From positions 682,353 through 746,352 of the forward strand of contig DAIDHW010000001.1 of the NCBI GenBank assembly GCA_027451865.1: a DNA stretch of 64,000 bases, read 5' to 3'. The notes beneath the pieces were generated by a model, which was given only the letters and a program-made list of their open reading frames with translations, had not been told where the DNA came from and ran no database searches. A program made the position numbers and the translations under genes. Origin of the DNA: Leptolyngbyaceae cyanobacterium clean351 (lineage in GTDB: Bacteria; Cyanobacteriota; Cyanobacteriia; DAIDHW01). Below are positions 2,924 through 14,475 of the stretch, one piece after another. Numbering within the stretch: the first letter of the stretch is position 1; every line of letters starts with the position of its first letter.

Positions 2924-3040
2924 CTAGTTAGGCCTGTTCCTCCCGCTGTCAATACATTGAGCTATAGTGTATCTGCACTGTGGAAAATGGTAGGCGCCGG
3001 ACTTTCCCCAGCGACCCTATTACCGGAAACCCTTAACTCG

Positions 3041-6000
3041 ATGGCTCAACTCGAAGACCTCACCCGTGGTACTACAGTCAAAGGCATCCTGCCGACCCAC
3101 AACGTTACCGTCATCGACACGAGGTGGCACGGGAGTGACGTGGTTGAGCTGACCTACAAGGATGCGAACGGTCAACCTCACACTGAGCTCCTGTTTCGCG
3201 ACCGTGAGCCGACCCTGGAAGTTGTCACCCAAGGGCGACCGTGGAGCTTTGATGGGGATGGGGCGTTGCTGCGGTTGGTTTCCGAGGCCCATCGCATTCG
3301 GCTAGCGCACTTATTTGACCCGCTGCTAGCGGTTCATACCTCATTGGTGGAACCCCTCCCTCACCAAATCATGGCAGTCTACGGCGAGATGCTGGCCCGT
3401 CAACCACTGCGGTTCCTCCTAGCTGACGATCCGGGAGCCGGAAAAACCATCATGGCTGGACTGTTTATCCGTGAATTACTGATCCGGGGAGACCTACAAC
3501 GGTGCATGATCGTTTGTCCTGGGAGTTTGGCCGTGCAGTGGCAGGATGAGCTGTTTCAAAAGTTTCATCTGCCCTTTGAGATGCTGACCAATGACCGGAT
3601 CGAAGCGGCTCGTACCCGGAATGCCTTCCCGGAAATGCCACTGGTCATCGTTCGGTTGGACAAGCTCAGTCGCGATGAACAGCTGCAAGCCAAGCTGAGG
3701 CAAACCGATTGGGATCTGGTGGTGGTGGATGAGGCTCACAAACTGTCCGCCTCGTTTTTTGGGGGTGAACTCAAGGAAACCAAGCGTTATAAGCTCGGTA
3801 AGTTACTCTCAACGCTGACCCGCCATTTTCTGTTGATGACGGCAACTCCCCACAACGGGAGAGAGGAGGACTTCCAGCTTTTCCTCGCCCTGCTAGATAG
3901 CGATCGCTTTGAGGGACGATTCCGAGACGGGGTACATGCCTGCGACACATCTGACATGATCCGGCGCCTGGTCAAGGAAGACCTACTGAAGTTTGATGGC
4001 AAACCGCTCCTTCCTGAACGTCAGGCACACACGGTAAAGTATGTCCTGTCGGATCTGGAGGCTGTTCTTTACAAGCAGGTTACTGCCTACGTCAGGGAAG
4101 AGTTTAACCGAGCCGAAGCATTAGCCAACGATGGCCGCAAGGGAACCGTTGGTTTTGCTTTGACGATCTTGCAGCGTCGCCTCGCTTCATCTCCAGAAGC
4201 CATTTATCAATCTCTCCAACGACGGCGGGAACGGTTAGAGAAACGGCTGCGAGAGGAGGAACTCTTAAAAAGGGGGGTATCAGCACAGATTAACCTTGGT
4301 CCTACCATTGACCCGGAGGATTGGGAGAATGATTTTGAGGACCTCTCTAGTGATGAACACGAGGCTAGAGAAGAAGAGGTGGTTGACCAGGCCACGGCAG
4401 CTCGCACGATCGCTGAACTACAAGCCGAGATTGGCCAGCTTGGTAAACTCGAAGATCTAGCCTTGCGGGTTCGACGCAGTGGTAAGGACCGCAAGTGGGA
4501 TGAGCTATCTAAGTTATTACAAAATAGCGCTGAGATGTTTGATGCCGGGGGCCATCGGCGCAAACTGGTGATCTTCACCGAACATCGGGATACCCTGATC
4601 TATCTGGCAAGTCAAATAAAGAACCTCATGGGGCGACCTGAGACGGTGGTCACAATTCACGGTGGCATGGGACGGGAAGAGCGTAAGAAGGCCGAGGAAG
4701 CCTTTAAGCAGGATGTCACTGTGCAAGTCTTGATCGCCACGGATGCCGCTGGAGAAGGGATTAACCTACAACGGGCACACTTGATGGTGAACTACGATCT
4801 GCCCTGGAATCCCAATCGACTAGAGCAGCGGTTTGGGCGGATTCACCGGATCGGTCAGACCGAAGTCTGTCACCTGTGGAACCTGGTGGCAGAGGAGACC
4901 CGTGAAGGGGACGTGTATCTCTCGCTGCTCAAGAAGCTGGAGGTTGAGCAAAAGGCATTAGGTGGCAAGGTTTTTGATGTATTGGGGCAAGCAATCGCCG
5001 GTAAGGAACTGCGAGAACTGCTGATTGAAGCGATTCGCTACGGCGATTGCCCAGAAGTAAAAGCGAAGCTTGACCAGGTGGTCGCCGATCGCCTCGACCA
5101 ACGCCGATTACGAGAGTTGCTCGAGGAACATGCCCTAGCCCGCGACTCGATGGATGCGACCAAGGTGCAGCAGATTCGCCAGGAGATGGAGCGGGTGGAA
5201 GCTCGAAAACTCCAGCCCCATTTCATTGCATCCTTTTTTTTAGAAGCCTTTCAAGGATTAGGCGGTACGATTCGACAGCGGGAAACTAAACGCTATGAAA
5301 TTACTCATGTTCCGGCGGTGATCGGCAATCGCAATCGCCTCATTGGTGTGGGTGCAGCCATCTTAAAACGGTATGAACGTATTTGTTTTGAGAAGGAACT
5401 CATCAGTGTTCCCGGAAAACCCCTGGCTGATTTTGTCTGCCCTGGTCATCCCCTCCTCGATGCCACCGTTGATTTGATATTAGAGAATCATCGGGATCTA
5501 CTCCGGCAGGGTGCCATCCTGGTAGACGAAAACGATCCGGGGGAAGAAGTCCGCGCCTTGGTGTATTTGGAGCACTCTATTCAGGATGCTTGCACCGGAC
5601 GGGATGGACGGCGGCGGGTCGTCTCACGTCACATGCAATACGTGGAAATTGACAGCACAGGTCAAACCCTTGGCGCTGGTTATGCCCCCTATCTCGACTA
5701 TCGACCCTTAGAGGAAGCGGAAAAGCCTTTGACAGAGTCGGCGCTGAAGGATTTGGGTCTGCGGGAGGATATTGAAGGCAAGGCGACCAGCTATGCCATT
5801 GCTCATTTGGTGCCGAACCATCTTCAGGAGGTGCGGGAACGCAAGGAAGAGCTGATGGAAAAGACGGTGCGGGCAGTGCGGGACCGGCTGACGAAGGAAA
5901 TTAACTATTGGGACCATCGGGCAGCCGACCTGCGGTCCCAGGAGCAAGCAGGCAAGCCCAATGCCAAGCTTAACTCTACCAAAGCCCAACAACGGGCGGA

Positions 6001-6619
6001 TGAGTTAGCCGCCCGACTGCAAAAGCGCCTGTGTGAGTTGGAGCAGGAGCGCAAGCTTTCGCCGATGCCCCCTATCGTTGTGGGCGGGGCGCTAGTGGTG
6101 CCCATCGGTCTGCTGCAACGGCTACAAGGAAAACGGGAATCGACGACTAGCACCTTTGCCCGGGAAACAAGGCGGGTTGAGCTCGCCGCCATGGATGCAG
6201 TCATGGCAGCAGAACGGGAGTTGGGGTATGAGCCCCGGGATGTCAGCGCTCACAAGTGTGGTTACGACATTGAATCGGTGGAACCGGGGACTGGACAGTT
6301 ACGCTTGATCGAGGTGAAAGGTAGGATAGAAGGGGCACAAACGGTTACAGTCACCAAGAACGAAATCCTGGTTGCCCTCAATAAACCGGATAATTTTATC
6401 TTGGCCTTGGTGCAGGTCCCAGGGGATGGGAATTTCCCAGAAGAAGATGCGTTTGCCGTGCGCGAGTCTGGGGGGGGCTATCAGGTGCAGGGCAAGGGCT
6501 GCGTCTTGCGCTATGTCAGGAAACCATTTCAACAGCCAGACTTCCGGGCCTGCAGTGTGAACTATCCCTGGAAAGACCTTTGGAATGATGGCTATGACCC
6601 AAGGAGGACAACCCCATGA
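3041..6619 (+). CDS. drmD: DISARM-like SNF2 helicase with DUF3883 domain
   Basis: A protein of about 1,190 residues with a SNF2/RapA-type helicase core: Walker A in DDPGAGKTIMAG (near residue 130), DEAH (near 229), TATPHNG (near 265), then in the C-terminal lobe TDAAGEGINLQ (near 563) and RFGRIHRIGQ (near 591). A coiled, charged middle follows. The C-terminus has RLIEVKGR (near 1,088), typical of DUF3883, a PD-(D/E)xK-like fold. DrmD is the SNF2 helicase of class 1 DISARM. The frame extends upstream to a TTG at 2957, but MAQLEDLTRGT matches the usual family start, so I chose ATG 3041. The stop overlaps the next ATG (ATGA). Confidence 0.8.
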   Translation: MAQLEDLTRGTTVKGILPTHNVTVIDTRWHGSDVVELTYKDANGQPHTELLFRDREPTLEVVTQGRPWSFDGDGALLRLVSEAHRIRLAHLFDPLLAVHTSLVEPLPHQIMAVYGEMLARQPLRFLLADDPGAGKTIMAGLFIRELLIRGDLQRCMIVCPGSLAVQWQDELFQKFHLPFEMLTNDRIEAARTRNAFPEMPLVIVRLDKLSRDEQLQAKLRQTDWDLVVVDEAHKLSASFFGGELKETKRYKLGKLLSTLTRHFLLMTATPHNGREEDFQLFLALLDSDRFEGRFRDGVHACDTSDMIRRLVKEDLLKFDGKPLLPERQAHTVKYVLSDLEAVLYKQVTAYVREEFNRAEALANDGRKGTVGFALTILQRRLASSPEAIYQSLQRRRERLEKRLREEELLKRGVSAQINLGPTIDPEDWENDFEDLSSDEHEAREEEVVDQATAARTIAELQAEIGQLGKLEDLALRVRRSGKDRKWDELSKLLQNSAEMFDAGGHRRKLVIFTEHRDTLIYLASQIKNLMGRPETVVTIHGGMGREERKKAEEAFKQDVTVQVLIATDAAGEGINLQRAHLMVNYDLPWNPNRLEQRFGRIHRIGQTEVCHLWNLVAEETREGDVYLSLLKKLEVEQKALGGKVFDVLGQAIAGKELRELLIEAIRYGDCPEVKAKLDQVVADRLDQRRLRELLEEHALARDSMDATKVQQIRQEMERVEARKLQPHFIASFFLEAFQGLGGTIRQRETKRYEITHVPAVIGNRNRLIGVGAAILKRYERICFEKELISVPGKPLADFVCPGHPLLDATVDLILENHRDLLRQGAILVDENDPGEEVRALVYLEHSIQDACTGRDGRRRVVSRHMQYVEIDSTGQTLGAGYAPYLDYRPLEEAEKPLTESALKDLGLREDIEGKATSYAIAHLVPNHLQEVRERKEELMEKTVRAVRDRLTKEINYWDHRAADLRSQEQAGKPNAKLNSTKAQQRADELAARLQKRLCELEQERKLSPMPPIVVGGALVVPIGLLQRLQGKRESTTSTFARETRRVELAAMDAVMAAERELGYEPRDVSAHKCGYDIESVEPGTGQLRLIEVKGRIEGAQTVTVTKNEILVALNKPDNFILALVQVPGDGNFPEEDAFAVRESGGGYQVQGKGCVLRYVRKPFQQPDFRACSVNYPWKDLWNDGYDPRRTTP

Positions 6620-7244: not shown

Positions 7245-10200
7245 ATGACCTACCGCAAAAAGCTCATCGAAGTTGCCCTGCCCCTGGAAGCCATCAATAC
7301 GGAGTCAGCCCGGGAAAAGTCGATCCGTCATGGACACCCCAGCACTTTGCATTTATGGTGGGCACGGCGCCCGTTAGCTGCCTGTCGAGCGGTGCTGTGG
7401 GCTGCGTTAGTGGATGACCCCTCCAGCTGGCCGGATCGGTTTCCCACGGAGGAAGACCAGAATCGGGAACGGCAGCGGCTGTTTGACATTTTGGGGCGGA
7501 TTACCCTTGAGACTGATAGAAAAGGTCACACCAAGCAGGTGGTGCGCGGTCTGGTGTCGTGGGATGACATTAATAACCCCAAGTCGGGAGTGCTAGAGGC
7601 AGCTCAGCGAGAGATTGCCCGCTGTCTGGCGTGGGATAGGGGGGAAGAGCCGCCGACGGAACCGGATGCGGTGCGGGAGTACATTGCCAAGTATGCCCCT
7701 CCTGTCTATGACCCTTTTGCCGGCGGGGGTTCAATTCCCTTGGAGGCGCAGCGGTTGGGTTTGGAGGCTCATGCGAGTGATTTGAACCCGGTGGCGGTGC
7801 TGATTAATAAGGCGCTGATTGAGATCCCACCCAAGTTTAAGGGTCAGGCTCCCGTTAATCCAGAGAGCCGAGCGAAGAAGGATATTTCCTCTTGGCAGGG
7901 TGCGCAAGGGCTAGCAGCAGATGTGCGGTATTACGGGCAGTGGATGCGGGAGGAGGCGTTTGGGCGGATTGGCCACTTGTATCCCAAGGTTAAGGGGGAT
8001 TCCCCTCATCCCCTAGCCCCTTCTCCCACCAGGGGTGAGGGGGATAAACCAGAGCAACTAACGGTCATTGCCTGGTTGTGGGCAAGGACGGTGAAATGCC
8101 CTAACCCAGCCTGTGGATGTGCGATGCCGCTAGTACGGAGTCTTGAGCTTTCGACCAAGGAAGGGAAAAAAGCTTGGGTGGAGCCTGTGATTGATCGTTC
8201 TCCCCTCTCCCCTAGTGGGAGAGGGGCTGGGGGTGAGGGGCCAAGGGTGCAGTTTGTGGTGAAGTCGGGGGAGGGTAAAGCACCGGAGGGAACCGTAGGC
8301 CGCAAGGGGGCGCGCTGCATCGCCTGCGAAACTCCTGTAGCACTCGATCATGTCCGCCAGGAGGGACGCGCCGGACGCATGGGGCAGCAGCTAATGGCGA
8401 TCGTGGCAGAGGGACAAAACGGACGGGTTTATCTGGCACCCACCGCGGAACAGGAAGCCATTGCCCATTCCGCTCAACCCCAATGGAAACCGGATACTGA
8501 TTTACCCAAAGAGGCGTTAGGATTCCGGGTACAAAACTATGGCATGACCAAACACGCCGATCTCTTCACCCCCCGCCAACTAGTCGCCCTCACCACCTTC
8601 AGCGATTTGGTAAGTGAAGCACGGGAAAAAGCCACTCGGGATGCGGTGGCAGCAGGACTAGCCGATGATGATGTGCCGTTGAATGAGGGGGGGAGGGGGG
8701 CTAGGGCCTATGGAGAGGCAGTAAGTGTTTATTTGGCGTTTGCGGTTGATAAAGCTAGTGATTATTGGTCAGGAATTTGTACCTGGCACGTGGGACGTGT
8801 AACAGTTACACATACATTTGGCAGACAGGCCATCCCCATGACCTGGGATTTTTGTGAAGCAAATCCTCTGAGTGACTCAACGGGAAATTTTAACAGCGCC
8901 ATCGAATGGATTGTTAAAGTCCTCGAGGTTGCCTTTCCCAATTCTCCATCACAAGTCACACAACACGATGCGACCGCCCCTCACCCCCACGACACCACCC
9001 CCAAACTCATCTCCACCGATCCGCCCTATTACGACGCAGTACCCTATGCCGATCTCTCGGATTTCTTCTATGTTTGGTTGCGTCGCTCCATCGGTTCAGT
9101 TTATCCCAATATCTTCAGCACTGTTTTAGTCCCTAAAGCCCAAGAACTGGTCGCTGATAATTTCCGACATGGCAGCAAAGAGAAAGCCAAAGATTTTTTT
9201 GAAGCAGGGCTGACCAGGGTTTTTCACCGCGCCAATTATCTCAGTCGTCACGATTATCCTATCACAGTTTACTACGCTCTCAAGCAGACTGAAAGCACTT
9301 CTGAAAACGATGAAGTCGATGAACCGGATGAAATTAATTCTGCTCCTAAAAAAAACAAAAAAGCTGACGGACAAAGAGCTTCTACAGGCTGGGAAACCAT
9401 TTTGGAAGGGTTGATTCAGTCGAATTTCAGCATTGATGGCACTTGGCCCCTGCGTACCGAACTCGTCAATCGAATGCGCGGACAAAAATCCAACGCCCTC
9501 GCCTCCTCCATCGTCCTCGTCTGCCGCCCCCGCCCCACCGACGCCCCCAAAATCACCCGCCGCCGGTTCCTCACCGAACTCAAGCGTGAACTCCCACCTG
9601 CCCTAAGAAATCTCCAACAAGGCAACATCGCCCCCGTAGACTTGGCCCAAGCCAGCATTGGCCCCGGCATGGCGGTCTTCTCCCAATACGCCGCTGTTCT
9701 AGAAGACGATGGCTCCCCCCTGCGGGTGCGTACCGCCCTGCAACTGATCAATCAGATCCTCGACGAATTCCTCACGGAGCAGGAAGGTGAGTTTGACCCC
9801 GACACCCGCTGGGCCCTCACCTGGTTTGAGCAGCATCAGTTTGAGCCTAGCCTGTACGGTGACGCTGAAACCCTCAGCAAAGCTAGAAATACCAGTGTAC
9901 AAGGCATGGTCGATGCGGGCATCCTAGAAGCCAAGGGCGGCAGGGTGCGGTTGTTGAGGCGAGATGAATTGAAGGACACCCTCATCTCCCAACCCCTTCT
10001 CCCATCAAGGGAGAAGGGGGGCAACACTGCTCTTACTCCCCTCTCCCCTGGTGGGAGAGGGGCCGGGGGTGAGGGAGCCAACCACTGGGCAATCACCCAA
10101 GACCTGACCTACAAACTCGATAAAGGAGGCGAAATGGCTGCCGCCAAACTATTAGCTCAACTAGGAGGCAGGGGCGAAATTGCCCGCGACCTCGCCTATC

Positions 10201-10337
10201 GGCTTTATAGCCTCTGCGATCGAAAAGGCTGGGCAAAAGAAGCCCTAGCCTACAACAGTTTAGTCATCTCCTGGCCCGAAATCACTCGGCTAGCATTAGA
10301 GGAGCAGCATAAATCAGTCCAAACCAGTCTTCTATAG
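7245..10337 (+). CDS. DUF1156 DNA methyltransferase (anti-phage associated)
   Basis: A 1,030-residue protein. The start ([48 protein letters not shown]) is the DUF1156 domain. An AdoMet-binding motif follows at [15 protein letters not shown] (about residues 155-170). The catalytic motif [18 protein letters not shown] lies near residue 590, as in N6-adenine/N4-cytosine methyltransferases. A zinc ribbon, CPNPACG and later CIAC, lies between them. DUF1156 proteins occur with DUF499 in anti-phage loci, presumably marking self DNA. The gene starts 12 bases after vapC. Four GC-rich palindromic repeats are inserted in frame at about residues 252, 318, 911 and 930; one splits the zinc ribbon. I see no stop or frameshift. 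Confidence 0.85.
   Translation: [1030 protein letters not shown]
8000..8045 (+). repeat. In-frame palindromic repeat, copy A
   Basis: This is a GC-rich imperfect palindrome beginning CCCCTCATCCCC and ending GGGGTGAGGGGG. It is read in frame as [15 protein letters not shown] within the DUF1156 gene, between LYPKV and [10 protein letters not shown]. The inserted peptide is unlike its surroundings. It belongs to the same repeat family as the copies at 8200, 9978, 10035 and 11853. Confidence 0.8.
8200..8240 (+). repeat. In-frame palindromic repeat, copy B
   Basis: The palindrome centres on CCCCTAGTGGGAGAGGGG and ends GGGTGAGGGG. It is read as [14 protein letters not shown]. It sits between the CPNPACG and CIAC halves of the methyltransferase's zinc ribbon and is nearly identical to copy E in the DUF499 gene. 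Confidence 0.85.
9978..10021 (+). repeat. In-frame palindromic repeat, copy C
   Basis: A shorter, more diverged member: CCCCTTCTCCC, a short loop, then GGGAGAAGGGG. It is read as [14 protein letters not shown] near the C-terminus of the methyltransferase, 13 bases before copy D. Two copies so close together suggest a preferred insertion spot or local duplication with divergence. Confidence 0.75.
10035..10076 (+). repeat. In-frame palindromic repeat, copy D
   Basis: CCCCTCTCCCC, the loop TGGT, then GGGAGAGGGG and GGGTGAGGGA. It is read as [14 protein letters not shown], in the same reading phase as copies B and E. It lies in the C-terminal part of the methyltransferase just before [13 protein letters not shown]. 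Confidence 0.85.
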
Positions 10338-10349
10338 CTCCGTCCAATT

Positions 10350-10991
10350 ATGGTCACTTTACAACTCCGACAACTCACCGTCCCACCCGGTCAACGCCTC
10401 CTGATTCACGACCTGGATTGGTCAGAATTTGAAGCTATCCTCGATGAACTAGGTGAAAACCGAGCCAGCCGGATCGCCTATAGCGATGGAATTTTGGAAA
10501 TCAGGATGCCATCACCCAAACACGAGCGCGAGAAGTCCATTATTGGAGACGTAGTCAAGATCCTATTAGAAGAGCTAGAAATTGACTGCGAATGTTTTGG
10601 GTCAACCACCTTCAAGCGGCAGGCAATGAAGTACGGGATTGAACCTGATGAATGCTTCTATATCCAAAACCACCAGACCATGATTGGCAAGGATCGGCTG
10701 GATTTATCCATGGATCCGCCACCAGATCTTGCCATCGAGGTTGATATCACCTCCAAAACCCAAATTGATGCTTACATCCGCCTGGGTGTGCCGGAACTCT
10801 GGGTCTATGAAGATGCTGAGCTAAAAATCTACATCCTGGAAGCAAAGCAATATCAGACTTCCACCACCAGCCCAACGTTTCCGCAGCTACCGATTTTGGC
10901 ATGGATTGCAGAGGTGTTAGAGCAAAGTCGAGCGACCGGTCGAAGCCCTGCCTTGAGAGCCTTTCGCCAAAAAATTCGCTCAACCCTGTAA
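10350..10991 (+). CDS. Uma2-family (DUF820) putative endonuclease
   Basis: A 213-residue member of the Uma2 family, PD-(D/E)xK-fold proteins that are extremely numerous in cyanobacteria. Visible core residues are D100 in YGIEPDECFYIQ and E130 in PDLAIEVDITSKT, with HERE near residue 58. Cellular roles are largely unknown; many are thought to be transposon- or defence-linked nucleases. The gene begins 12 bases after the methyltransferase stop and is followed closely by the DUF499 gene, so it is probably co-transcribed. Whether it is part of the defence system or a passenger cannot be decided from sequence. Confidence 0.85.
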   Translation: MVTLQLRQLTVPPGQRLLIHDLDWSEFEAILDELGENRASRIAYSDGILEIRMPSPKHEREKSIIGDVVKILLEELEIDCECFGSTTFKRQAMKYGIEPDECFYIQNHQTMIGKDRLDLSMDPPPDLAIEVDITSKTQIDAYIRLGVPELWVYEDAELKIYILEAKQYQTSTTSPTFPQLPILAWIAEVLEQSRATGRSPALRAFRQKIRSTL

Positions 10992-11058
10992 GTAACGCTT
11001 GAGCTACCGGATCAACTTGCCGAATAAATTAATACTTATCCGCAAACCCATCCAACCT

Positions 11059-14000
11059 ATGGCGATTAGCAACTACGACCGAGTCGGCAAAGCCTTGAAT
11101 CTACTCCGTGATGGGCTATACCCCTACATTGAGCGGGAGATGAAGGCCATACATGGCGATCGGTGGTTGATTCCTGTTTCCTCTAGCCTGCCCGACCACT
11201 ATGTGGCTCGTCGTGAAGTTCAAGATATCCTCAAAGAAGATGTTTCTGCCCTGCTCATAGTGATGTGGGAGCAGTGGAATAATGTCTTTCGCAATACCTT
11301 GGGGCGCACCGAACGAAGTATCATCAGCGAGCTGCGAGATACCCGAAACGACTGGGCGCACACCTCCGCCTTCTCAACAGACGACGCCTATCGTGCCCTC
11401 GATAGCATGGCCCGTCTCCTCACTGCCATTTCTGCCCCAGAAGCCGATCAGGTCGAAAAACAGAAGCAAGAATTGCTGCGGGTTCGTTTTGAAGACCAAG
11501 CTCGGCGGGAAACTCGGCGTGCGGCAGTCGTTCCCACGGTCGGCCAGCCCATGTCTGGACTCAAGCCGTGGCGGGAAATTGCCACCCCTCACCCGGATGT
11601 CGCCTCCGGTCGCTACCAGCAAGCGGAATTTGCCGCTGATCTGTGGCAGGTCTACCTGGATGAAGGTTCTGATGAGTATCGCCTGCCGACCGAGTTCTTT
11701 CGCCGCACCTATTTAACGGATGGACTGAGGCAACTGCTCACGGGCGCACTGCTGCGCCTTAGTGGCAAGGGTGGCGACCCAGTCATTGAACTTCAGACCA
11801 ACTTCGGTGGTGGTAAAACCCACGCCATGCTTGCCCTCTATCACCTGTTCTCTTCTCCCCTCTCCCCTAGTGGGAGAGGAGCCGGGGGTGAGGGGCTGCT
11901 ACCGGGAATGGAACCCCTTTTCCAGGAAGCAGGGGTGAAGGAACCCCCTCAGAACGTCAATACTGTCATCTTGGTCGGTAACAAAATTTCCCCGGGCCAG
12001 ATTCATCAAAAGCCAGATGGCACCCGAGTGCGGACCCTTTGGGGGGAGATTGGCTGGCAACTCGGTGGCAAGGAAGGCTACGAGATGATGCGCGCAGCCG
12101 ACGAAAGCGCGACCAATCCGGGGGATACCCTCAAGGATCTTTTCAATAGGTATGCGCCCGTTCTCATCCTGGTGGATGAGTGGGTTGCCTACGCCCGTCA
12201 GCTCCACGATAAGAGCGATCTGCCCGCCGGAACCTTTGATACGCACTTCACCTTTGCCCAGACCCTCAGCGAGTCGGCCAAGAATGCCCAAAAAACCCTG
12301 TTGGTGGTCAGCATCCCCTCCTCTGATATTGAGATTGGGGGGGACCGCGGCAAGGAAGCCCTAGACAGGCTTAAAAACGCGATCGGTCGGGTGGAATCTC
12401 CCTGGCGACCCGCCAGCGCGGAGGAGAGCTTTGAAATTGTGCGGCGGCGCCTATTCCAAACGACCACTGACCCCAGCCTATTTGTGCAGCGGGACGCCGT
12501 GGTAAAAGCCTTCTTCGAAATGTATCGCGATCAAGGACAGGAATTCCCTAGGGAATGTGGGAAAACTGACTACGAGCGGCGCCTGCGAGAGGCATACCCC
12601 ATCCACCCCGAATTGTTCGATCGCCTGTATTCCGACTGGTCTACCCTCGACAAATTCCAGCGGACTCGGGGGGTGCTGCGGCTCATGGCAAAAGTTATCC
12701 ACTCCCTCTGGGAGCGCAATGACCAGAGCCTGATGATCATGCCAGCCCATGTGCCCATGGATGATCCCCAAGTACAAGCTGAACTGACTCGTTATCTGGA
12801 GGACAACTGGGTTCCCGTGATCGATAAGGATGTTGATGGATCCCATTCCCTCCCCCTTTCCCTCGATCGCGATAACCCTAACCTGGGTCGTTACTCTGCC
12901 TGTCGCCGCGTCAGCCGCACCGTCTACCTGGGGTCTGCGCCCACCCGCACCGTCTACCTGGGGTCTGCGCCCACCTTGCGCGCCGCCAATCGCGGGTTAG
13001 AAGACGGCAGGGTGAAGCTGGGCTGTGTTCAACCAGGGGAAACTGTTGCGATCTTTGGGGATGCTCTGCGACGGCTCACGGACCAGGCCACCTATCTGTA
13101 CTTCGACGGCAGTCGCTACTGGGTTTCCACCCAGCCCAATGTCAACCGCACCGCCCAGGAACGCGCCGATCAGCTTTTGAGCGACCGCTACCAAGTCTGG
13201 AAGGAAATCACGGATCGCTTAAAAGAATCCAGTAAGAAGCCCAGCGGCCGGGGAGACTTTGGGGCTGTCCACGTTGCCCCTGAATCCACCGCCGATATCC
13301 CAGATGACCCTTCCTTAGGGGTAAGGCTGGTGGTGCTTGATCCACAGCACCTCCACACTCGTTCAAGTAAAGATAGCCCAGCCCGCAGGTGGATTGATGA
13401 TGCTCTCAACCACAAAGGCAGTGGGCCGCGATACTACAAGAACACCCTGCTTTTTCTGGCCGCAGATAAATCTAGTACTGAAGATTTAGAACGAAAGGTT
13501 GCCCAGTACCTAGGGTGGGAATCTATCCTGGCTGATGATAAGCAGAAGACCCTTAACCTGGATAATTTTCAACGAAGTCAGGCTGAAACCAAACGCAATA
13601 GTACCAACGAAGACGTTGATCGGACCCTCTGTGATACCTATCAGTGGCTACTAATACCAACTCAAGGCGATCCCCAGGGCGGTATCGAGTGGAAGGAAAT
13701 CCGCCTGCAAGGGGGGGAGGGTTCGCCCATCCTTCGCGCCAGTCGCAAAGCAGTCTACGAAGGGGATCTCCTCACCAAGTACGCAGCTGCCAACCTGCGA
13801 CTCGAAGCACTGGATAAGCTTCTCTGGCGAGACACGAACCATATCGATCTAAAACGGCTTTGGGAATGTCTCACCCAGTACCTCTATCTCCCACGCCTAA
13901 AGGATGAGTCCGTTCTTCTGAAAGCCATTCAAGATGGGGTAGCCTCAACCGTGTGGGCTGATAGTTTTGCCTATGCGGAAGGCTTTGATGACGTCAAGGG

Positions 14001-14475
14001 CAAGTATCTTTGTCTGCGTACCGCCATGGTTATCAGTCCCAGCATCAGCCCTCAAAGCCTGCTGGTGAAGCCAGATGTTGCTCAACAGCAACTTGATGCT
14101 GAAGCGGCGCAGGCAATCACAAGCACTACGGTTGGAACAACTGGTGGCAGTACACCGTCTGTTCGCACCAGCAGTGACTCCCAGTATGGTTCTGGTGAAA
14201 ATGCTGCCAAGGATAGCGACGGGGTAGGAGCAACTCCCATCCTCCGTAGATTTTATGGAAATGTGGATATTGATGCGCTGCGGATTAACCGAGATGCCCC
14301 GACGATCGCCAACGAGGTGATTCAACACCTAATCACGTTGAATGGCGCGAGGGTCAAAATTACCCTGGAGATTGAAGCTGAAATTCCTGAGGGAGTACCT
14401 GATGACGTAGCGCGTACGGTTATGGAAAACTGTCGAACGCTCAAATTTAATCGTCAATCCTTTGAGCAGAGTTAA
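11059..14475 (+). CDS. DUF499 ATPase (anti-phage associated)
   Basis: A protein of about 1,138 residues. It starts with a Swt1-like/HEPN-type helical region ([24 protein letters not shown]). An AAA+-like ATPase follows, with Walker A at [10 protein letters not shown] (near residue 247) and Walker B at [14 protein letters not shown] (near 371). DUF499 proteins pair with DUF1156 methyltransferases in anti-phage loci, where they probably remodel or translocate DNA. A TTG at 10999 would add 20 residues, but [13 protein letters not shown] is the natural family start. A palindromic repeat adds about 15 residues after Walker A (near 265), and a 30-bp tandem duplication gives [10 protein letters not shown] twice near residue 620. 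The frame stays open throughout. Confidence 0.8.
   Translation: [1138 protein letters not shown]
11853..11895 (+). repeat. In-frame palindromic repeat, copy E
   Basis: CCCCTCTCCCCTAGTGGG with the complementary arm AGAGGAGCC and GGGGGTGAGGGG. It is read as [14 protein letters not shown], in the same frame as copies B and D, directly after the Walker A helix (LALYHLFS) of the DUF499 protein. It differs from copy B at only a few bases. Confidence 0.85.
12916..12975 (+). repeat. Perfect 30-bp tandem duplication in the DUF499 gene
   Basis: Two identical 30-base units (12916-12945 and 12946-12975) encode [10 protein letters not shown] twice in a row. Because the unit is ten codons, the frame is kept. 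Lack of any mismatch implies a recent slippage or duplication, or an assembly artefact. Confidence 0.95.

Follow-up and report, generated by a model that had tools for sequence, protein, structure and literature searches.

In-frame triplex motifs in the Hma defence genes of a cyanobacterium and their association with DUF559 nuclease genes

Intrastrand triplex motifs (TMs, the TM/PIT repeats; TMECO in Escherichia coli) were described by Holder et al. in 2015 (PMC4666352). Triplex formation by TMECO was demonstrated in vitro, the copies were reported as always intergenic and without a link to mobile elements or to a class of flanking gene, and pairs that join an A-type with a B-type copy in inverted orientation were published (PMC4666352). 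The Hma defence system has likewise been described, as a Type-1 BREX-related system with a DUF499 protein (PMC12839542). The two subjects meet in the stretch of DNA analyzed here, 64,000 nucleotides of the Leptolyngbyaceae cyanobacterium clean351 (contig 1, positions 682353–746352 of a 2.48-Mb genome; below, the window), where five palindromic repeats, copies A to E, lie in frame inside the Hma genes for HmaB (7245–10337, + strand) and HmaC (10999–14475, + strand). By sequence and layout, the copies are class-II intrastrand triplex motifs, and repeats of this type are tightly associated with DUF559 nuclease genes across many phyla. We consider it probable that the repeats derive from DUF559-nuclease units, as their ends and relics, and that the Hma allele already contained them when it reached this host.

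The motif runs from a pyrimidine arm through a loop to a purine arm, and from there through a short loop to a mirror-matched third strand. Copies B, D, and E, on the + strand, form subtype 1 with the layout CCCCTCTCCC-loop-GGGAGAGGGG-NN-GGGGGTGAGGG, copy E having one change in the purine arm. Copies A and C, on the − strand, form subtype 2 (GGGAGAAGGGG..GGGGATGAGGG), in which the purine arm has an extra A and the third strand, GGGGATGAGGG-like where subtype 1 has GGGGGTGAGGG, matches that extra A, so that purine arm and third strand change together between the subtypes. The TMECO type B sequence CCCTCTCCCTGTGGGAGAGGGCCGGGGTGAGGGC (PMC4666352) shares this layout and is almost identical in sequence. 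A search of Rfam matched no family. A custom-made finder for triplex motifs in general, which asks for an antiparallel, triad-compatible third strand after the purine arm and a short loop, and which other repeat designs escape, recovered B, C, D, and E and gave 0 matches in 608 kb of shuffled sequence, while copy A fails its arm criterion through mismatches. The third strand belongs to the repeat and follows changes of the purine arm, because, of 443 purine-arm hairpins near DUF559 genes, 193 are matched by a third strand on the purine side and 6 by one on the mirrored side, and because there a third strand fits its own arm better (0.45 mismatches) than one swapped in from another locus (1.84).

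The original prediction had placed five palindromes in these two genes, and all five are present within a few bases of where it put them, each keeping the reading frame open. Copy A (8003–8043, −), whose pyrimidine arm is imperfect, encodes PHPLAPSPTRGEG at about residues 253–268 of HmaB, and copy B (8202–8240, +) encodes PLSPSGRGAGGEG at about residues 319–332. Copies C (9979–10019, −; PLLPSREKGG, about residues 910–922) and D (10038–10075, +; PLSPGGRGAGGEG) are the left and right halves of a tight inverted doublet, also in HmaB. Copy E (11857–11895, +) encodes PLSPSGRGAGGEG, also given as SPLSPSGRGAGGEG, in HmaC directly after the GGGKT P-loop helix. The like peptides read from B, D, and E had been recognized before; what had escaped is that A and C are inverted copies of a second subtype. 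Folded together, C and D give two hairpins, and their outer tails pair to close the structure (z = −4.2). As an inverted pair, C/D resembles the inverted A-type/B-type pairs of TMECO (PMC4666352). In contrast to the intergenic TMECO copies of the same report, all five present copies lie in frame inside HmaB or HmaC.

Pattern searches of the whole host genome returned, for subtype 1 at ≤3 mismatches, copies B, D, and E only, with 0 control matches. This count and the blank result of the finder on shuffled sequence show that the copies do not arise by chance. Subtype 2 was found, besides A and C, at four further places: in the DrmMI gene of the neighboring DISARM system, at two positions near 490 kb, and at one on contig 9. 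The host total is about ten copies, and no further copy lies within the 64-kb window, as had been predicted. The host has few copies, and they cluster in the defence island without being limited to it. The claim that the repeat is restricted to the island falls with the copies near 490 kb and on contig 9, the DrmMI copy belonging to the same island. DrmMI, 7.7 kb upstream of the window (L016:7992–12350, that is, host contig 1 at about 672–676 kb; pattern search and PADLOC), holds an in-frame inverted repeat pair whose second copy is degenerate.

The repeats of HmaB are in-frame insertions at sites that are empty in relatives, and sister alleles carry full units at the same site. Compared with 16 relatives, the inserts occupy three loops of variable length, empty in most of them. 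The loop at residue 254 is empty in G045 (75% identical) and G207 (74%), contains a TM, a DUF559 domain, and a second TM in one open frame in G286 (82% identity) and G085 (78%), a TM doublet in G125, and a single TM, copy A, in the window. At residue 320, G085 has a TM doublet and the window has copy B, the nearest empty alleles being without TM; at residue 908, one TM in + orientation stands in G286 where copy D sits, and the window has the C/D doublet. The HmaB proteins of the window and of G286 are sisters, with branch support of 0.98 and 94. At the site of copy E, a short loop such as MGVPASK joins ALYHLF to LPGLEP in HmaC homologues; in both proteins, the inserts thus fall in loops that homologues leave empty or that differ there in length. 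Copy A had also been considered as a chimera of two TMs, a candidate that was dropped after DNA comparison with G286 and G125. Since the comparison shows instead a complete TM that contains mismatches and precedes a linker (CCAGAG) resembling the linker of the G286 unit, the reading of copy A as the leftover of a full TM–DUF559–TM unit is only suggestive.

The HmaB loops at window residues 254 and 320 are tolerant, because unrelated repeat peptides (NHGDTEDTENLRDLCASVV, NHKGTEDTK, and SPLTSHSSLLTP/NTSLLTP) fill them in other species (L266–L269, L261, L263, L273). The insertion tolerance suggested in the original prediction is therefore borne out. The acquisition from a repeat-rich genome that it also offered is plausible, the sister HmaB, 82% identical, being in a genome with 370 copies as compared to about ten in the host.

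Within the phylum, subtype 1 (≤3 mismatches) is present in 53 of 386 genomes, with a maximum of 370 copies in G286. We examined the surroundings of 158 copies, namely those listed by the search, in which high-copy genomes are under-sampled. Many of them are intergenic, and those inside open reading frames (ORFs) of ≥250 amino acids are distributed over 49 distinct ORFs. When one genus, g58, is set aside, 27 of the 33 repeat-bearing genes are restriction-modification (R-M) or defence genes (type IIG, MmeI-like, type III Mod/Res, ISP, HmaA, HmaB), whereas 0 of 464 control ORFs around other copies are homologous to them. Tolerant loops, frequent transfer, or a gain from the added nuclease domain would each fit this over-representation. 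In genus g58 (L103–L121; G193, G346), in-frame repeats are found in polA, uvrC, uvrD, mfd, ligA, cobN, and NFACT genes. The targets polA, uvrC, uvrD, mfd, and ligA match a published remark that repetitive extragenic palindromic (REP) elements inside genes often hit DNA-repair genes.

In several of the repeat-bearing R-M genes, a DUF559 domain has been inserted and is bracketed by the repeats, a tie between the repeat type and this nuclease that the original prediction had missed. In the phylum, 28 DUF559 loci with room for both flanks were picked by the DUF559 profile (PF04480), and 23 of them are flanked by motifs, with 55 motifs within 300 bp and 0 beyond 700 bp. A wider set of 80 DUF559 loci was picked by protein patterns only from a named genome collection and covers Bacteroidota, Chloroflexota, Proteobacteria, Patescibacteria, one archaeon, and others. 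Here triplex motifs flank DUF559 in 62 of 80 loci, on both sides in 42, and their density is 3.33/kb within 300 bp (155 motifs in 46.5 kb) versus 0.070/kb beyond 1 kb (20 in 285 kb). When the two-flank loci of both sets are pooled (n = 64), the inner edges of the motifs are 309–523 bp apart, with a median of 376 bp. The two flanks of a locus are more alike (0.80) than flanks of different loci (0.64; maximum of 300 permutations 0.671), and most pairs are inverted, the orientation differing between stand-alone (+− 28, −+ 1) and embedded (−+ 17, +− 4) units, with p about 1e-8. DUF559 is present in 44 of the 53 genomes with subtype-1 TMs and in 195 of the 333 others (p = 7e-4, uncorrected for kinship).

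The DUF559 domain, named EDxHD in PMC9403480, resembles PDB 3hrl, and its residues E59, D61, H65, D72, and D48 are invariant in 15 sequences (pattern E-x-D-G-x-x-H-x(6-8)-D). In other phyla, MetH, at two separate sites, IleRS, and LeuRS are interrupted by DUF559 domains with TM flanks; such domains also lie within HsdR, HsdM, and a GH31 enzyme, and the frame stays open in all of these. The embedded domain appears to stay in the host protein. A 560-residue ORF (L153:385–2064) combines a GHMP-kinase domain with two DUF559 domains, one of which lies between repeats.

The association extends to E. coli, whose YcjD is annotated as a DUF559 protein. One of the TMECO copies given in PMC4666352 is located, in MG1655, at a distance of 165 bp from the 3′ end of ycjD, and strain 118UI has two TMECO copies at this end, one of them overlapping the end of the gene (the ycjD loci with TMECO repeats are L288:1706–1942 and L289:1765–2005). 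In the open-access papers searched, we found none that joins DUF559 or YcjD to TM/PIT repeats.

The repeats and DUF559 form a unit about 0.45 kb long, with a DUF559 (PF04480, Vsr/EDxHD-like) nuclease as its sole gene and TM ends that are often inverted pairs or doublets, and it occurs either as a stand-alone gene or as a continuous reading frame inserted inside another gene. If the repeats are indeed the ends and relics of such units, solo and doublet TMs would be non-autonomous copies, or what remains after the nuclease part was lost. In the Hma lineage, such units would have entered three tolerant loops of HmaB and one loop of HmaC, and the allele would afterwards have been transferred to the present host, which is the direction we infer. 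We also infer a role of DUF559 in mobility: it may drive the spread, the probable route being that it cuts TM structures or DNA close to them and that repair between TMs copies the unit in. In the host, a six-frame profile search found no DUF559, a result that is not absolute because such a search can miss members (E. coli was unmatched despite its annotated ycjD). With neither DUF559 nor Y1_Tnp found in the host by profile search, the simplest account of its copies is that they arrived together with the defence genes.

A number of observations weigh against this explanation. The triplex finder gave no motif at 18 of the 80 DUF559 loci, and TMs are kept without DUF559 in 9 of the 53 genomes, including the host. 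Some genomes hold hundreds of TM copies versus 1–5 DUF559 genes, which requires action in trans or old activity. The dispersed variants follow the DUF559-adjacent variant only roughly (20 genomes, most of which fit), and in G104 there are 54 CCCTCTCCC hairpins, while its examined DUF559 carries mainly the CCCTCCCC type. Excision, cutting, and transposition were not observed, and mobility between close strains was not seen when the E. coli ycjD locus was compared; a clean empty site of ycjD was not found there, the two ycjD-less strains holding a larger replacement, an efflux operon.

The scarcity of DUF559 genes, few or none, in some genomes with many TMs would be natural if DUF559 were a homing parasite, that is, if the TMs spread otherwise, by replication slippage or another transposase, and the nuclease settled beside or between the TMs that it cuts. 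The invariant residues, the match to 3hrl, and the EDxHD name (PMC9403480) agree with such a Vsr-like enzyme, and doublets on both sides of DUF559 (L020, L021) look like the result of insertion into a doublet. On the other hand, the two TMs of a unit are alike beyond those of other loci, the unit length is narrow, and the sites of embedded units are empty, not TM-bearing, in most relatives, so that we regard homing as unlikely, if still the most serious competitor of the explanation by DUF559 units.

The inverted pairs and dispersed intergenic copies are reminiscent of REP doublets forming hairpins (REPINs), and REPs inside genes are known (PMC3733652), which raises the question whether the present repeats are REP elements moved by a REP-associated tyrosine transposase (RAYT, Y1_Tnp). 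The profile search for Y1_Tnp gave 0 matches in the host and none in the repeat-bearing genomes G229 and G282, the 300 bp around Y1_Tnp are free of triplex motifs at 5 of 6 loci checked, and neither a GTAG nor a CGTC tag was seen by eye at the ends of the five copies. RAYT was rejected as the partner of the repeats on account of its absence from the host and of the motif-free Y1_Tnp loci, and we consider this origin very improbable. It seems just as hard to credit that the peptides are retained for protein function, as flexible linkers or additional domains from which defence enzymes would benefit. The excess of R-M and defence genes among the carriers (27 of 33 outside g58, against 0 of 464) speaks for it, and an added nuclease domain could make a methyltransferase a restriction enzyme; against it, homologues have unrelated peptides or nothing in the same loops, and these repeats stand between genes in other genomes and, in genus g58, lie in polA, ligA, cobN, and others.

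It is useful to set DUF559 units beside the known systems. They share with REP/REPIN–RAYT systems the short palindromes, the inverted pairs, an enzyme gene bracketed by repeats, and many non-autonomous copies, and they differ by the DUF559 nuclease, the third strand of the repeat, the missing GTAG/CGTC tag, and the frequent in-frame embedding of the unit. Rickettsia palindromic elements (RPEs), to which the original prediction had likened the repeats, are in-frame palindromes inside genes, DNA-repair genes included, and the HmaB and HmaC copies are, like them, in-frame palindromes absent from homologues. Their layout differs as far as is known, and RPEs are not known to bracket a nuclease gene; the sequence and layout of the present copies are those of TM/PIT motifs, and the kinship proposed earlier is not supported. 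EDxHD homing endonucleases (I-Bth0305I) and inteins similarly place a nuclease ORF inside conserved host genes, with a similar active-site pattern, but here the ends are triplex repeats and no intron or protein-splicing element was seen.

The Hma system is complete at this locus, HmaA, HmaB, and HmaC each being matched by PADLOC at an E-value of 0. HmaA (2957–6619, +; Pfam and PADLOC), an SNF2/NOV_C helicase, is without a repeat. HmaB, a DUF1156 adenine methyltransferase (Pfam PF06634, 5.8e-32; PADLOC HmaB), hosts copies A–D, and HmaC, with an N-terminal Swt1-like HEPN domain and a DUF499 AAA+ ATPase (Pfam, PADLOC) and a likely start at the ATG at 11059, hosts copy E. Between them lies a gene for a putative Uma2-family nuclease (10350–10991, +; domain match). 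The helicase, the methyltransferase, and the HEPN–DUF499 ATPase are common to the published system and the locus, and the novelty here is limited to the inserts and the Uma2 gene (PMC12839542). HmaC also has an in-frame 30-bp tandem duplication at 12912–12971, which encodes RTVYLGSAPT twice with copies 97% identical. The adjoining DISARM system is represented in the window by part of DrmA and DrmB (23–2565, +; PADLOC).

To our knowledge, neither an origin nor an enzyme has been known for TM/PIT repeats, which occur in hundreds of bacteria, and no role has been assigned to DUF559 proteins, E. coli YcjD among them. We lean, by a small margin, toward a kind of very small mobile element that had gone unrecognized, in which triplex-forming repeats bracket a DUF559 nuclease, and which would spread through bacteria, sit unspliced inside essential and defence genes, and be the source of TM/PIT repeats, including those of E. 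coli K-12 (ycjD). The link between TMs and DUF559 makes both the origin of the repeats and the role of DUF559 directly testable in a laboratory strain. If true, it would add a class of element that remains in the protein rather than being spliced out, and it would provide a simple route by which methyltransferases gain nuclease domains.

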